From Alphaproteobacteria bacterium (GTDB taxonomy: Bacteria > Pseudomonadota > Alphaproteobacteria > Caulobacterales > Aquidulcibacteraceae): a stretch of DNA of 64,000 bases. The stretch is from NCBI GenBank assembly GCA_030430715.1, contig JAUIJZ010000001.1:1-64000 (forward strand). Direction: 5' to 3'. Positions within the stretch are counted from its first letter, which is position 1; every line of letters starts with the position of its first letter. This document shows, one piece after another, positions 176-62,380 of the stretch. The notes below the pieces were generated by a model. That model was given only the letters and a program-made list of their open reading frames with translations, was not told the origin of the DNA and ran no database searches. The translations under genes and the position numbers were made by a program.

Positions 176-2233
176 CTATCGACCGCGCCGCAAATCCTGC
201 TCCAGCATGATCGGCGTCGGCGTGTCGGCCAGGCGATAGCGATAGACCTGCAAATTCTCCAACACGCGCTGCACGTAATTACGCGTTTCGCCGAACGGAA
301 TGAGCTCAATCCAGTCAACCACATCCACGGAGCTTGAACGAGGATCGCCCCAATCATTGATCCAGCTGCGGGCATTGCCCGAGCCGGCATTGTACGAAGC
401 GATAGCGAGCACGTAGGAGCCGCCAAAATCGTCGACGAGATCGGCGAGGTGCGCCGCGCCCAGCGTCATATTGTATTGCGGATCGGTGGTCAGCGCCGAT
501 CGCTGATAGCTCATCCCTTCGCGGCGCGCCTGCGCTTGCGCGGTTGAAGGAATGAGCTGCATTAGTCCGCGGGCGTTAGCGCTGGAGATGGCGCCCGCAT
601 CGAACTCGCTTTCTTGCCGGATGATCGCGAACACGAACGCAGGCTCGGGCCGGTTGCTCTGGCGTACCACCGGCGGCAGTTCGAGTAGCGGATAGGCGGC
701 GTCGACAGCAACCACGTTGCGGAACAGCCCGGCCTTAGCCGTGCGTAGCGCGGTCCGGTAATAGGATTGCTCGCGCGCCAATTGCGCCAGCAATTCGTGC
801 TCCATCGGATCGTCAAGCGTGTCGTCGAGATAATAGGCGATCGATTCAAAATCACGCTGTGCGCCGACTTCTGACATCAGGCGCAGCGCGCGCACCAATT
901 CACGGCTCTCGAAACGCGAGCGAGCGGTGTCGGATACTTGGCTCGTTTCAGGCAGTGATATGACTGCGCTGCGGTCGCCGCGCGTTGCCGCGAGCTGGCC
1001 GTAATAGGTGAAATTATACTGCGCTGCTTGGGTATAGAAAAGTTCGGCTTCGGCGCGCTGGCCGAGCGCGCTAGCGGCTTCCCCCTGCCAATAAAGCCCG
1101 CGCGAGTGACTGACGGGTGACGAGACATTTTCGCTCAAATGCGCGAAGTGCTCTGCGGCGCGTTGGGGCTGGCTAAGATAGCGCAGCGACAGCCAACCCG
1201 AGAGCCACTCTGCGTCGGCGAAGGCTTCACCGGACGTAAGGCCGTGATTGGATACGAGCTGATATGCCAAGCGCGGATTGCCGGCGCGCAAGGCGCGCGG
1301 CACATAAAGGCGACGTTCTCGGAAGATGTCGTCGCGCGCCGCTTCCGGCGCCAGCGTGGCGTCGATCTCGGCGGCGAGCATCATCGCATCGACCGGTTGG
1401 TTGGTGCGCCGGCGATACTGGACGCGGTCGTACATGAAGCCGGGATTGTTCGTACGCGAGGACGGCACTGCATCCACAGCCGCCTGCATGCCGCGGCGCT
1501 GCCGCGTCTGCATGGCGATGCGCGCGACTGCTACGGCGCGGTCAGCGGAGGAAAGATTCGAATAGAGCCGCTGCGCGGCGGTCCGTTGCCCGCGCCACAA
1601 CAGGATGTCCACGCGGGCGGCGTAGTCTGCGTTGCTGAAGACAGACGAGAATTCATCGCGCGCCCGTTGCTCGGCTGTGCTGGACAGGGAATCCTCGCGC
1701 CAAGCTTGGCGCGCGATTTGGTCTGCCTCTGAACGCTGGCCGGCATCTTTAAGAGCGATGGCAAGCGCGATACGCCCATCGCCGGTAAGAGGTCCGTCAT
1801 CCTGACGCAGGAAGGTGATGCGTTCGCTCGGCGAGAGGCGGGAATCGTAAATGGCCTGCTCGGCGCGTGCGCGCATCGTTGTGCGGCCCGGCCAGTCTTG
1901 CAGGTCATTGAGCGCTTGGCGGATGTCGCTGAAATAGAGTGGCGCGTCATTGGAGGCCGCCCAGCGCCATTGCAGCATCCGGCGCACCAATGGATCGGTT
2001 GCTCTGTCGCGCAGGCTCGCTAGGCCGGTCCAATCGCCATTGGAAGCTGCGGTGAGGCCATCCCGCAGGCGCAGGCGCTCAGGCGCGGCCACCTCGGGCG
2101 GAGGCGTATAGACCACGGCTTCGACTTGGGCTGGTCCCAAGCTGCTTTGCTGCCCAATACTGGACGAAACGAGGAGGCTTGTCGCCGCGAGTGAAATCAC
2201 CGCAACGCCAAAGAGTCTGGAGCCCGCCTGCAT
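176..2233 (-). CDS. lytic murein transglycosylase (Slt70-like)
   Basis: 685-aa ORF; C-terminal 'FAIIRQESEFDAGAISSANARGLMQLIPSTA' and 'IASYNAGSGNARSW' SLT-domain motifs; helical repeat N-terminus with signal peptide. Confidence 0.92.
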   Translation of the reverse strand: MQAGSRLFGVAVISLAATSLLVSSSIGQQSSLGPAQVEAVVYTPPPEVAAPERLRLRDGLTAASNGDWTGLASLRDRATDPLVRRMLQWRWAASNDAPLYFSDIRQALNDLQDWPGRTTMRARAEQAIYDSRLSPSERITFLRQDDGPLTGDGRIALAIALKDAGQRSEADQIARQAWREDSLSSTAEQRARDEFSSVFSNADYAARVDILLWRGQRTAAQRLYSNLSSADRAVAVARIAMQTRQRRGMQAAVDAVPSSRTNNPGFMYDRVQYRRRTNQPVDAMMLAAEIDATLAPEAARDDIFRERRLYVPRALRAGNPRLAYQLVSNHGLTSGEAFADAEWLSGWLSLRYLSQPQRAAEHFAHLSENVSSPVSHSRGLYWQGEAASALGQRAEAELFYTQAAQYNFTYYGQLAATRGDRSAVISLPETSQVSDTARSRFESRELVRALRLMSEVGAQRDFESIAYYLDDTLDDPMEHELLAQLAREQSYYRTALRTAKAGLFRNVVAVDAAYPLLELPPVVRQSNRPEPAFVFAIIRQESEFDAGAISSANARGLMQLIPSTAQAQARREGMSYQRSALTTDPQYNMTLGAAHLADLVDDFGGSYVLAIASYNAGSGNARSWINDWGDPRSSSVDVVDWIELIPFGETRNYVQRVLENLQVYRYRLADTPTPIMLEQDLRRGR

Positions 2234-2361
2234 GACCTACTCCGGTTCGAATCCGCATTGACCCGCACATGGCGAAGCGGGCCGCTATTTAACCTACGCG
2301 AACACTGTGGCAGGAATCGCGCCAACGCCAGCCCGATGGGCACTGATTGGACGCCTCTGCA

Positions 2362-3234
2362 ATGTTTCACGGGTCGATTCCCGCACTCATAACGCCATTT
2401 CGCAACGGAATCGTGGACGAACGGGCGTTCCAGGCGCTCGTCGAGCGCCAGATCACGGAGGGGTCCACCGCCCTTGTCCCCTGCGGCACGACCGGTGAGG
2501 CATCAACACTTACGCTGGAAGAGCACAAACGCGTTGTGGCCCTGTGTATTGAGGCGGCGGCAGGACGGGTTCCGATTATTGCCGGGGCCGGCTCAAACGA
2601 CACAATAGCGGCTATCGAATTGGCTCAAGCGGCGAAGGATGCCGGTGCGGACGCCGCGCTGCTTGTGGCGCCTTATTACAATAAGCCAAGCCAGGACGGG
2701 CTTTTTGCGCATTACAAAGCGATCAGCGAAGCCGTCGACCTGCCGATGGTGATCTATAATGTGCCATCGCGCACCATTGTGGATATCAGCGTGGAAACCA
2801 TGGCGCGGATCTCAAAGCTGCCGAATGTCGTGGGCATTAAGGATGCGAGCGGCGATCTCGCGCGCGTGGCGCGGCACAGCGCTATGTGCGGCGACGGATT
2901 CGCGCAACTGTCGGGCAATGACGACACTGCCGTCGATTTCTGCGTTCTTGGCGGCGTTGGCTGCATTTCCGTTACCGCCAATGTTGCGCCGAAGGCGTGT
3001 GCTGAGGTGCAGGCGGCGCTTAAGCGTGGCGATGTGGCTGCGGCGCGTGCTTTGGACGCTAAGCTGTCCGGCTTGCACAAGATGCTCTTTTGTGAGCCAT
3101 CCCCTGCGCCTGTGAAATACGCCTGTTCCGTTTTGGGATTGGCCGGCGAGGATGTGCGCTTGCCGCTGATCACGTGCAGCCAGGACGCGCGTGAGAAGGT
3201 CGATGCGGCTTTGAAGCAGGCTGAGCTGATCTGA
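2362..3234 (+). CDS. dapA: 4-hydroxy-tetrahydrodipicolinate synthase
   Basis: '[10 protein letters not shown]', 'GTTGEASTL', '[17 protein letters not shown]', 'YNVPSRT', 'GIKDASGD' motifs; ATG at 2362 preferred over TTG at 2347. Confidence 0.95.
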
Positions 3235-53800: not shown

Positions 53801-55351
53801 ATGACGGCACTGCACCGTGTCCAATTGGCTGTTCGCCAAGCGCGAACCACCGACATCGAACCGATCGTGGCGCTAGGGAAACGGGCTTACCCCGATATGG
53901 CGCCCTACACGGCCGGCCATATTCAAGGACAGCTTTCCGCGTTTCCCGACGGCCAATTCGTGGCCGTGGCCGGCGATGAGGTGGTCGGCTATGCGGCGAC
54001 ATTCCGCATCGACGAAGCGAGCGCGCTTCGACCGCACACTTGGGCGGAAATTACTGGCGGCGGTTATGCGTCGCGTCACGATCCATCCGGCGACTGGCTT
54101 TACGGCATGGAGGTATGCGTTGACCCAGAATGGCGCGGCAAGCGGGTGGGGCGGCGGCTCTATGAGGCGCGCCAGCAATTAGCCGAGCGGCTTGATCTGA
54201 AAGGCGTCGTCTTTGGAGGCCGCTTGCCTGGCTTGTCGACGCGGCGCGGCCGCCAATACGACTCGCCGAGTGCTTATCTCGATGATGTGGTGGCGCGAAA
54301 AATCCGCGACCGCGTGGCGACCTTCCAAATCGACAACGGCTTTGAGCCGATCGGCGTGTTGGAAAACTACATTCCAAGCGACAAGGAGAGCCTCGGTTAC
54401 GCCGCGCAAATGGTGTGGCGCAATCCGTACTATGAGCCCAAGCCTACTTCGGCCAATGCGCAGCGCCCGAAGGATTGGGTGCGCGTCGCCTCGGTGCAGT
54501 TCCAGCAGCGTGCTGTGAAAAGCTTTGAGGAATTCATCAGCAACGTCGAATATTTCGTAGATATTGCTGCCGATTATAAAGCTGATTTCGTCGTCTTCCC
54601 CGAGCTGTTCACGCTCACATTGCTGGCGTTTGAGACACGCAAGCTGGGCCCTGTGGAAGCGCTTGAAGCGCTCACGCGTTATACGAAGCCCTTCGTCGAT
54701 GCGATGCGCGAAATGGCGGTGAGCTATAATGTCAACATCATTGGCGGTTCACATCCGACGCGCATGCCGGACGGCGACATTCACAACGTAGCCTACATTT
54801 TCTTGCGCGACGGCTCGGTGCATGCGCAGGAGAAAATTCACGCGACGCCAAACGAACGTAGCTGGTGGAATATTCAGGGCGGAGATGAGGTTCGCTCTAT
54901 CGAGACCGATTGCGGACCGATTGGCGTCTTGATTTGTTACGATTCAGAATTCCCGGAACTCGGCCGAAAACTCGCCGATGAGGGCGCGCGCATTCTATTC
55001 GTGCCGTTCTGTACCGATACGCGGCAGGGCTATTTGCGCGTGCGTTATTGCTCTCAAGCCCGGGCGATTGAGAACCAATGCTATGTCGTAATGGCGGGGA
55101 ATGTCGGCAATCTGCCCAATGTCGAAAACATGGACGTGCAATACGCACAATCCTGCATCATCACTCCGTGTGATTTCCCGTTCGCGCGCGACGGTATTGC
55201 GGCGGAAGCTACGGAAAATGTCGAGACCGTGATCTTTGCCGATCTCGACTTTTCCGATTTGGCTTGGGCGCGCGCACAAGGAACTGTGCGAAATTTACGC
55301 GACCGCCGTTTCGACCTTTATCGAACGTCCTGGAAGAACGACGGCCGCTAG
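53801..55351 (+). CDS. bifunctional GNAT N-acetyltransferase / carbon-nitrogen hydrolase (nitrilase superfamily)
   Basis: N-terminal GNAT 'MEVCVDPEWRGKRVGRRLYEARQQL'; C-terminal nitrilase 'VFPELFTL', 'EKIHATPNERSWW', 'GVLICYDSEFPE'. Confidence 0.92.
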   Translation: MTALHRVQLAVRQARTTDIEPIVALGKRAYPDMAPYTAGHIQGQLSAFPDGQFVAVAGDEVVGYAATFRIDEASALRPHTWAEITGGGYASRHDPSGDWLYGMEVCVDPEWRGKRVGRRLYEARQQLAERLDLKGVVFGGRLPGLSTRRGRQYDSPSAYLDDVVARKIRDRVATFQIDNGFEPIGVLENYIPSDKESLGYAAQMVWRNPYYEPKPTSANAQRPKDWVRVASVQFQQRAVKSFEEFISNVEYFVDIAADYKADFVVFPELFTLTLLAFETRKLGPVEALEALTRYTKPFVDAMREMAVSYNVNIIGGSHPTRMPDGDIHNVAYIFLRDGSVHAQEKIHATPNERSWWNIQGGDEVRSIETDCGPIGVLICYDSEFPELGRKLADEGARILFVPFCTDTRQGYLRVRYCSQARAIENQCYVVMAGNVGNLPNVENMDVQYAQSCIITPCDFPFARDGIAAEATENVETVIFADLDFSDLAWARAQGTVRNLRDRRFDLYRTSWKNDGR

Positions 55352-57337: not shown

Positions 57338-57802
57338 TTAAAGGCGCTCTTCTCGCTCTAATGGGTCAGGAAGCGCTGCGCCCTCAGGCACAAACGCTAG
57401 TGAAACCGAATTGATGCAATAGCGCAGCCCAGTTGGTTTGGGGCCGTCTGGGAAGACGTGCCCCTGATGGCTGTCACAACGGGCGCAACGCGTTTCGATA
57501 CGGCGCATGCCGTAGGAATTATCCTCGACGCCGATCACATGCTTTGGATCGATAGGCTGGTAGAAGCTTGGCCAGCCTGTCCCGCTCTCGAATTTGGTTT
57601 CTTGCCGGAACAGCGGCAGTCCACAGAGGCGGCAGCAATACACGCCAGCTTGCTTTTGATTGAGCAAGCCGCCGCAGAATGGCGCCTCCGTGCCATGGTG
57701 CAGCAGCACCTCCTTCTCTTCGGCGCTCAGTCCTGCCTCCAATTGGACGCGCTGGTCTGCGTTGGGCGGCGTGAGATCGAATCCGGATTGTGATTGGGTC
57801 AT
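57338..57802 (-). CDS. msrB: peptide-methionine (R)-S-oxide reductase
   Basis: 'CRLCGLPLF', 'FESGTGWPSFYQPI', 'CARCDSHQGHVFPDGP', 'RYCINSVSLAFVP'. Confidence 0.95.
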   Translation of the reverse strand: MTQSQSGFDLTPPNADQRVQLEAGLSAEEKEVLLHHGTEAPFCGGLLNQKQAGVYCCRLCGLPLFRQETKFESGTGWPSFYQPIDPKHVIGVEDNSYGMRRIETRCARCDSHQGHVFPDGPKPTGLRYCINSVSLAFVPEGAALPDPLEREERL

Positions 57803-57851: not shown

Positions 57852-58265
57852 TTACACGACGGTTTCCCGGGCACCATAGAGTTCGGCTAGGCGGGCGAGG
57901 AGGCCCTCTGCGCCCGCGGCGATCTGCTTGTCTGTGAAGCGAGCCGCACGAAGCTGACGAGCGGCATCGGCCAGGCCTTTGGGGGCGATGTCGAGTTTGC
58001 GGCGGTGCTTTTTAGCGAGATGCTCGACAAGCAGCTCGGCTTTCTCCGACGCTGGCGCGAGCACCGGCTTGAGCGTTGTTTGTAGCTGTTGGGTCAACAC
58101 ATCGCCGCGCCGCCGCTTTGCGCGCTTCTTCGCTGGCGCCAGAACATTGAGCAGGGCGCGATCGTCATGCGTGCGAACAAGCGCAAAGAGCGCCTTCAGC
58201 TCAGCGCGAGAAACTTTTCTTACGGCCTTGCGGAGAGCCTTCTCTTGATTGGGAGATAATTTCAT
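57852..58265 (-). CDS. small highly basic helical protein, second gene of TIR-ParA cassette
   Basis: 137 aa, 'KKRAKRRRG' basic stretch; ATG overlaps the TGA of the upstream ParA-like gene (58262-58265). Confidence 0.75.
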   Translation of the reverse strand: MKLSPNQEKALRKAVRKVSRAELKALFALVRTHDDRALLNVLAPAKKRAKRRRGDVLTQQLQTTLKPVLAPASEKAELLVEHLAKKHRRKLDIAPKGLADAARQLRAARFTDKQIAAGAEGLLARLAELYGARETVV

Positions 58266-59530
58266 TCCGACGCTCTCCGCAAAATGCCTGCGGCTGCGCG
58301 TGCAAGCGATTCCTTTGCGGGGCGTCCGCCTACGCGCATCATGGCGGTGATGTTGATTGGATTGGCGGCAAGCCGGTCGGTCGGCGGTGATCTCAGCACG
58401 GCGGAATATGGCACTTCGTCTGGCAAAAGCGCTGCTCCAAAAAAGGGAGCGCTGCTGATTTCTTCGCGCGTAAGCGCGTCGGCGTTGCCGGTTTCCGATG
58501 AGCGCGTTCTGTCGTTCACGCCGTTAAGCAGCACTGAGAATTCGCTTGGGCGCAAGGGCCTTCCCCTCACTTCGCGCACGACATGCTCAAGCATATTCAG
58601 ACCGGTGAGCGAGTATTTTTCTGGCCGCACCGGGGCGATGATATGGTCGGCCGTGGTGATGGCCAGGCGGGTCAGGAAGGTGGCGCAAGGGTTGGAATCG
58701 ATCACCACGATCTCCGAACGCGCCCGAAGCGCCGCGATCAGAGCGCGAAAGCGGGTAAAAGCCTCGGCCTTGTCACGATCCGAGCGTGTATCAAGCGTAT
58801 ACTCAAACAGGCGTTCGTCGCCTGCAATCAAATCGAAGTTCGGCATTTTCCCAGCGCGCTTGGCCCGATTTAGCGGCACGGAGATCGCCTCGAACTCTCC
58901 GCGTGGGAGGCTTGCATCTCCGCGCGATGTCAAAACGCCATAGAGGGTGTGGTTGCTGTCGCGGAGCCGGTGTCGCTCTGCGGGAGCAAGGAAGTATTGC
59001 GTGAGATTGTGCTGGGGATCGAGGTCGATGAAGCTGACGGAGCGCTTGTCTGCCAAGTGCGCTGCAGCAAAGAGATTCGCCGCTAACACGGTCTTGCCGA
59101 CGCCGCCCTTGATATTGAGCATGGCTATGACGCGGCCTTGGCCATTCGCCATACGCGCGGCTTCGGCGATTTGGCCGAGCTGCTCCGGATTGAGACCATT
59201 GCTCAAATCTATGGCGCGCGACAGGTCTAGCGTGGCTTCGATCCAGGACCCCGCGGTCAGGTCTCCCAGTTTGGCGGTCACGATGGGGCGGCCATTGTTC
59301 AGCGCCGCCGCGATCTCGCGCGGCAGTGTCGTACTTGCGTCTGCGGCGGCGGAGGCAAGGCAGATGACGACGCTCGCATTGCCAATCGTTTGGCTCAACG
59401 CTGCATCGCTATCGCTTGTGTCTCCGCCACTGCGGATGACGCTCCAGCTATTGCGCTCGAGTTCCGCTGCAATCTGACTTGCCACAAGCTCGTCGGCTCG
59501 CTCGAACGCGAGATACGCTTCGCTGGCCAT
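58262..59530 (-). CDS. TIR-like domain fused to ParA/MinD-family ATPase
   Basis: Residues 1-115 TIR-like ('AYLAFERAD...IGNASVVICLAS...LPREIAAALNNGRPIVTAKL'); residues 130-422 ParA ('NIKGGVGKTVLAANL', 'FIDLDPQHNLTQYF', 'IVVIDSNP'). Confidence 0.78.
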   Translation of the reverse strand: MASEAYLAFERADELVASQIAAELERNSWSVIRSGGDTSDSDAALSQTIGNASVVICLASAAADASTTLPREIAAALNNGRPIVTAKLGDLTAGSWIEATLDLSRAIDLSNGLNPEQLGQIAEAARMANGQGRVIAMLNIKGGVGKTVLAANLFAAAHLADKRSVSFIDLDPQHNLTQYFLAPAERHRLRDSNHTLYGVLTSRGDASLPRGEFEAISVPLNRAKRAGKMPNFDLIAGDERLFEYTLDTRSDRDKAEAFTRFRALIAALRARSEIVVIDSNPCATFLTRLAITTADHIIAPVRPEKYSLTGLNMLEHVVREVRGRPLRPSEFSVLLNGVNDRTRSSETGNADALTREEISSAPFFGAALLPDEVPYSAVLRSPPTDRLAANPINITAMMRVGGRPAKESLARAAAGILRRASE

Positions 59531-61000: not shown

Positions 61001-62380
61001 ATGCGTGAAAAATGGACCCCAGCCGCCTGGCGCGCCAAGCCCGCCAAGCACATCCCTGAAGACTATCCCGATCCGGCGGCGCTGGAGCGGGTAGAGCAGA
61101 CTCTGCGCACCTATCCGCCGCTCGTTTTTGCAGGTGAGGCGCGCAGCCTGAAAGCGCGGCTTGGCGAAGTCTCCGCCGGCAAGGCTTTCCTGCTCCAGGG
61201 CGGCGATTGCGCCGAGAGCTTCAAGGAATTCCACCCGGACAATATCCGCGACACCTTCCGCACGCTGATGGCGATGGCGGTGGTGCTGACCTTCGCCGGC
61301 TCGAAGCCGGTGGTGAAGGTGGGGCGCATTGCCGGCCAGTTCGGCAAGCCGCGTTCGTCGCCGGTCGAAACCAAGGATGGCGTAACGCTGCCGTCCTATC
61401 GCGGCGACAATATCAACGCGATGGAGTTCACGGCCGAAGCGCGCGTGCCCGATCCGGAGCGTTTGCTGAAGGCGTATTCGCAATCGGCGTCGACGCTCAA
61501 CCTGATCCGCGCTTTCGCCAATGGCGGCTATGCCGATCTGCACAATGTGCACCGTTGGATGACCGGCTTCGTCGAAGGCAGCCCGCAAGGGAAGCGCTAT
61601 CGCGAGATCGCCGACCGTATTTCCGAAGCCATCGACTTCATGGAAGCGTGCGGCATCACGCCGGACAGCGTCCCGCAAATGAAGCAGGTGGACGTCTATA
61701 CCAGCCATGAAGCGTTGCTGCTTGGCTATGAGGAGGCGCTGACGCGCGTCGATTCCACCAGCGGCGATTGGTACGACACCAGCGCGCATATGCTCTGGAT
61801 CGGCGACCGCACGCGCCAGCCCGATGGCGCGCACATCGAGTTCGCGCGCGGCGTGAAGAATCCGATCGGCATGAAGTGCGGCCCGACGCTTGAGCCGGAC
61901 GAATTGATCAAGCTGATCGACATTCTGAACCCCGACAACGAGCCGGGCCGTCTGACGCTGATCGCGCGCTTCGGTTCGGACAAGGTCGAGGCTGGATTGC
62001 CGAAACTTGCGCGCGCCGTCGTGAAAGAGGGCCGCAATGTCGTGTGGTCCTGCGACCCCATGCACGGCAATACGCTATCGACCGCCACCGGCTACAAGAC
62101 GCGGCCATTCGACCGCATCCTCGGCGAGGTGCGCTCCTTCATGGAGATCCTTCCCGCTGAAGGCGCATATCCGGGCGGCGTGCACGTCGAAATGACCGGC
62201 CAGCAAGTGACGGAATGCCTTGGCGGCGCGCAGGCGCTGACGGAGGAGGATTTGTCCTCGCGTTATCACACGCATTGCGATCCGCGACTGAACGGTGCGC
62301 AGGCGCTCGATCTGGCATTCCTGATCGCCGAGCATCTGCGCGGCGTCCGCACCAACGGCAAGAAGGCGAAGGCGGGGTGA
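61001..62380 (+). CDS. class II 3-deoxy-7-phosphoheptulonate synthase
   Basis: '[15 protein letters not shown]', '[16 protein letters not shown]', '[10 protein letters not shown]', '[10 protein letters not shown]'. Confidence 0.95.

Follow-up and report, generated by a model that had tools for sequence, protein, structure and literature searches.

The common reading of bacterial TIR domains is as effectors of defence or as factors for subverting a host, and the locus described here raises the question of what such a domain does when it is built into a ParA-type ATPase. In the window, that is, the whole 64,000-nucleotide stretch of DNA from a member of the Caulobacterales that was analysed, one open reading frame joins the two domains. 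The original prediction took this gene to stand alone, as a candidate defence or partition-like system in which TIR activity is gated by the ParA cycle. The relevant features are as follows.

57338..57802, minus strand: msrB-like gene, from a reading of the translation; conserved downstream flank, outside the module.
57852..58265, minus strand: partner gene, 137 aa, overlapping the stop codon of the TIR-ParA gene (ATGA) on the same strand.
58262..59530, minus strand: TIR-ParA fusion gene, 422 aa, ATG start, from the open reading frame and its translation, Pfam and AlphaFold2.
58265..59140, minus strand: ParA/Soj-type ATPase domain, residues 131-422, from the AAA_31 match, invariant motifs and Foldseek.
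59156..59530, minus strand: TIR domain, residues 1-125, from Pfam TIR_2, a profile search against the PDB and conservation of E72.
59315-59317, minus strand: codon of E72, the counterpart of the SARM1 catalytic Glu in the alignment.
61001..62380, plus strand: DAHP synthase gene, as read from its translation; a divergent flank that is conserved across three families, outside the module.

The TIR domain extends over residues ~3-125 and is followed by a complete ParA-type ATPase (131-422) with the deviant Walker A motif KGGVGKT at 141-147, the A' motif DLDPQHN and the Walker B motif VVID. In Pfam, the ATPase of the window protein matched AAA_31 at residues 133-323 (E=3e-24) and CbiA (2e-11), and the N-terminus matched TIR_2 at residues 7-112 (E=6e-6; 27.2 bits, slightly below the 28-bit cut-off) and ThsB_TIR (7.5e-4). 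Because a single borderline TIR_2 match could mislead, the N-terminus was examined through its family. TIR_2 was found in all 40 full-length homologues, with a best E value of 3.9e-20, and ThsB_TIR in 29 of the 40. A profile of residues 1-127 of 16 homologues, searched against PDB sequences, gave 97 matches at E<=1, the best 60 of which were all TIR proteins, including Cat1 (2.9e-9) and SARM1 (8e-8); among the matches listed there was no receiver domain, so that the TIR assignment stands against the alternative of a pseudo-receiver. In the same search, E72, the Glu of the 'REIAAAL' motif that had been predicted to occupy the catalytic position, aligned with the Glu of SARM1 'HKEIVTAL'. The AlphaFold2 model consists of two confidently predicted domains (pLDDT 86, pTM 0.87), with alternating strands and helices of a TIR-like kind in the N-terminal half, and the top PDB folds matched by the model in Foldseek are ParA/Soj (E=1.7e-12), in agreement with the predicted architecture of a TIR-like domain ahead of a full ParA ATPase.

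By profile, the domain shares the TIR fold with the TIR NADases (SARM1, AbTIR, Cat1 and the TIR-APAZ protein of SPARTA), as well as, in the genus Terricaulis, a Glu at the catalytic position. Unlike these enzymes, the window TIR has a degenerate box 1 (AYLAF in place of VFISY) and, four positions ahead of E72, a Thr where Trp is usual, and the family to which it belongs is coupled to a ParA ATPase and has lost the Glu in large part. The genome that contains the window is rich in TIR domains, with 13 TIR_2 matches, 9 of them above the cut-off (contigs C57, C78, C82, C84, C91, C109, C132, C133 and C157); on C91, two TIR genes lie ~1 kb apart.

Contrary to the original prediction, the gene does not sit alone: the two overlapping genes form an operon. 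The partner protein is basic (net charge +17), and its AlphaFold2 model is all-helical (pLDDT 83); it has no significant match in Pfam, NCBIfam or PADLOC, no PDB relative by sequence and no fold match in Foldseek. In every Terricaulis copy in which that side is readable, the partner adjoins TIR-ParA, at 48-67% identity, and an orthologue is found beside most of the copies in f1, the family to which the window belongs. A related overlapping gene is located 3' of distant, non-syntenic TIR-ParA copies, and the profile of the Terricaulis partners aligns with that of the non-syntenic ones over almost the full length (probability 96.5%, E=7.5e-10; a single comparison between shallow profiles). The N-terminus carries a positive charge in most partners. 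Not every member of the family has a partner, given that none was detected anywhere in the 8 genomes searched that carry the syntenic copies of a second family, f2. Two further small genes were observed. One is a second, solitary partner-like gene (L074:1095-1493, minus strand), ~4.4 kb from a TIR-ParA/partner pair and on the opposite strand. The other is a 149-aa gene that overlaps, on its downstream side, a ParA-only gene of 290 aa in another alphaproteobacterial family (L071:1498-2806), which is possibly a TIR-less relative with a partner of its own.

TIR-ParA is a fixed chromosomal gene in the Caulobacterales, with a near-core inheritance unlike that of the usual defence genes. It is present in 23 of the 30 Terricaulis genomes (including one copy with a frameshift and another truncated at the end of a contig), and at nearly all Terricaulis loci with visible flanks it is located between the msrB-like gene on one side and the MgtC-like and DAHP-synthase genes on the other; one locus (L044) lacks a recognised MgtC-like gene. 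The divergent arrangement with DAHP synthase recurs in other f1 genera and in f2, probably the Caulobacteraceae, where the neighbours of TIR-ParA are gor on one side and DAHP synthase on the other. The same two genes flank it in one genome of a third family, f4 (G338, locus L073), and a partner-like gene accompanies it there. Within the f2 genus g15, the gene is present in 41 of 42 genomes and in all 37 good ones. In genomes that lack it, the flanks are intact: in f2, gor adjoins DAHP synthase; at four Terricaulis loci without the module (L117, L118, L119 and L121), an Ion_trans_2 channel-type gene occupies the place between MgtC and msrB. No TIR-ParA fusion was found outside the Caulobacterales in samples of 399 genomes from the phylum and 385 from the class, searched with a profile built from Caulobacterales sequences, which independent TIR-ParA fusions could escape.

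The two halves of the protein are conserved to different extents. The Walker A residues K141 and K146 and the A' residue D171 are invariant in all 63 aligned homologues. Position 72 is Glu in 21/21 Terricaulis copies, so that the Glu anticipated in the original prediction is invariant in this genus, and also in the 7/7 copies that belong to neither the f1 nor the f2 core (non-syntenic or f4, with a readable N-terminus). It is kept in one of the six copies from the f1 sister genera and in none of the 27 f2 syntenic copies, which have Asp (19) or Gln (8) instead; the sole f2 Glu belongs to L074, a copy located away from DAHP synthase and accompanied by a partner gene. The f2 syntenic copies thus lack both the Glu and the partner gene, and the f1 sister genera are mostly without the Glu and mostly with the partner, so the correlation between Glu and partner is partial. 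Mean identity within Terricaulis is 87% for the ParA core and 61% for the faster-evolving TIR domain. In close Terricaulis pairs, dN/dS is 0.04-0.31 for TIR and 0-0.11 for ParA, rough values because dS is high in most pairs, which nevertheless point to purifying selection on both domains. Since the f2 syntenic copies have kept the ATPase and lost the Glu, a TIR NADase strictly gated by ParA, as originally proposed, cannot be the function of the whole family, although NAD chemistry may have been retained in Terricaulis, where the Glu is kept. With the ATPase invariant and the Glu not, assembly is the likelier function to be common to the family, catalysis being optional.

In the presence of ATP, ParA/MinD ATPases form dimers on the nucleoid or a membrane, from which a cognate partner, their link to cargo, releases them; such partners vary widely and in many cases act by way of an N-terminus with a positive charge (PMC10241942). 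TIR domains, in turn, work by self-association (surveyed in PMC7075850), and the combination of this property with the ParA/MinD ATP cycle suggests an assembly switched by ATP. We consider that there is an even chance that the module is a ParA-type spatial switch with a spatial or signalling function in housekeeping; the TIR domain would provide an ATP-switched assembly or address and the basic helical protein would be the partner. In this two-gene chromosomal module, ATP would cause the ATPase to dimerise on a matrix, probably the nucleoid; dimerisation would pair two TIR domains and thereby nucleate a TIR assembly; and the basic partner would dock on the dimer, bridge it to a cargo or target, and trigger ATP hydrolysis and release. 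In Terricaulis, which retains the Glu, a secondary NAD activity may survive under the control of this cycle. The cycle is drawn from the ParA/MinD family, and the cargo, the matrix, the contact with the partner and any enzymatic output are inferred. Similarly to TIR-ParA, the ParA/Soj and McdA-type positioning ATPases have the deviant Walker A, A' and B motifs and a small basic partner encoded next to them, and Soj (1wcv), ParA (8ray) and McdA (6non) are among the fold matches of the model; TIR-ParA differs from them in its N-terminal TIR domain and in a partner that represents a new family without ParB features.

The spatial switch is favoured by the overlapping partner, the fixed position at DAHP synthase in three families, the invariant ATPase and the clade-limited E72. 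The f2 syntenic copies without a partner, the invariance of E72 in Terricaulis and at least one non-syntenic copy in a defence-like island (L063; see below) speak against it. Here, a TIR domain is built into a positioning-type ATPase with core-gene-like inheritance over parts of a bacterial order. Because the Glu and the partner are each present in some natural lineages and absent from others, it can be tested directly whether the TIR is an enzyme or a kind of glue, and whether TIR assembly can be controlled by ParA cycling. In the open-access literature, we found no description of a TIR-ParA protein and no paper on TIR domains in Caulobacterales. Both halves are of known kinds, but the combination, the partner family and the core-gene behaviour appear to be undescribed there.

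The invariance of E72 in Terricaulis also points to possible TIR chemistry in this genus, against a pure assembly role. The module could be a housekeeping TIR enzyme unrelated to defence, whose ParA cycle, tuned by the partner, would cluster the TIR domains and toggle local NAD cleavage or signal production in Terricaulis, the sister lineages having dropped the chemistry and kept the positioning machine. We regard this as unlikely.

An unlikely explanation is the one closest to the original prediction, anti-phage defence by an ATPase-gated TIR NADase, in which the partner would sense infection and the ParA cycle would cluster the TIR domains, with consumption of NAD or production of a signal nucleotide. 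Such a function is supported by E72, which is invariant in Terricaulis and among the copies that belong to neither the f1 nor the f2 core, by the abundance of TIR_2 matches in the genome of the window and by the surroundings of two non-syntenic copies. One of these, L063, belongs to an island (L063:3498-9405) that consists of a TIR protein with a match to a topoisomerase C-terminal repeat, AbiTii, TIR-ParA with its partner, and a phage-type integrase; at L049, TIR-ParA is followed by genes of no assigned function and, a few genes off, by one resembling a pPIWI-associating nuclease. With AbiTii and an integrase beside TIR-ParA, L063 suggests that a defence-like, conflict-type branch may exist, and the island is a candidate defence-type version of the module. 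By context, the window copy lies outside any such branch. Its fixed synteny and near-core inheritance are atypical of defence genes, the whole Caulobacterales branch without a partner, like most of the sister genera, has lost the Glu and kept the ATPase, and TIR-ParA has no PADLOC match (the best, at E=0.04, covers part of the ATPase); none was obtained for the six neighbours tested either, so that a defence island at the window locus was rejected and the defence reading of this gene is not upheld. Thoeris ThsB resembles TIR-ParA in the weak ThsB_TIR match, but TIR-ParA is fused to an ATPase and lacks a PADLOC match to Thoeris, and there is no ThsA among its neighbours in the window (the partner, msrB-like, MgtC-like and DAHP-synthase genes). 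A viral or phage origin was likewise rejected: viral contigs contained no TIR-ParA fusion, and their matches are essentially limited to the ATPase part. The search for plasmid homologues gave no record with 80% coverage of the TIR-ParA query, and the matches listed start at residue 113 or later.

Two other non-syntenic copies, L054 and L059, share a position adjoining a gene that we read as dxs, with no obvious defence context; like L063 and L049, they keep the Glu and the partner. L054 also has a further degenerate TIR protein (1330-2409, minus strand; TIR_2 1.2e-4), a few genes from the TIR-ParA/partner pair and near flagellar-type genes. It could be proposed that an ancestral conflict module of TIR-ParA and partner was captured at the DAHP-synthase locus and became a housekeeping regulator, with loss of catalysis in some lineages and additionally of the partner in f2. 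The non-syntenic copies have a TIR box 1 closer to the canonical form, which fits this scenario, as does the f4 copy, which in the tree of the ATPase part is sister to the f2 clade (support 98) and has both the Glu and a partner-like gene, of which f2 has neither. In the same tree, however, the well-supported f1 and f2 core clades are not sisters, and the long branches leave the root and the placement of the non-syntenic copies unsure, so that the tree cannot fix the direction of change; we consider the scenario unlikely.

It is highly improbable that the gene is a leftover partition ParA of a plasmid or chromosome with a ParB-like partner, as the nearest folds and sequences (Soj/ParA) and the basic partner might suggest, because the partner matches neither ParB nor any known fold and contig C92 of this genome encodes a separate parA-parB pair, with the two genes next to each other; the chromosomal partition role, rightly doubted in the original prediction, was rejected. 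Equally remote is the reading as a TadZ/CpaE-like localisation factor, with an N-terminal flavodoxin-like (receiver) domain ahead of a ParA/MinD ATPase. The architecture is the same in outline, and the model matches 3fkq, which we take to be the two-domain structure of a TadZ-type protein, over 402 columns (E=1e-9), but with a TM-score of 0.36 and 11% sequence identity. TadZ/CpaE has a receiver-like domain, whereas the listed matches of the N-terminal profile are all TIR, and no Tad pilus genes were found among the TIR-ParA neighbours examined; this identity of the N-terminus was rejected and membership of TadZ/CpaE is disfavoured, with the analogy remaining. Elsewhere in the window, a 516-aa open reading frame (53801-55351, plus strand) reads, from its translation only, as a fusion of a GNAT acetyltransferase and a nitrilase-type hydrolase.
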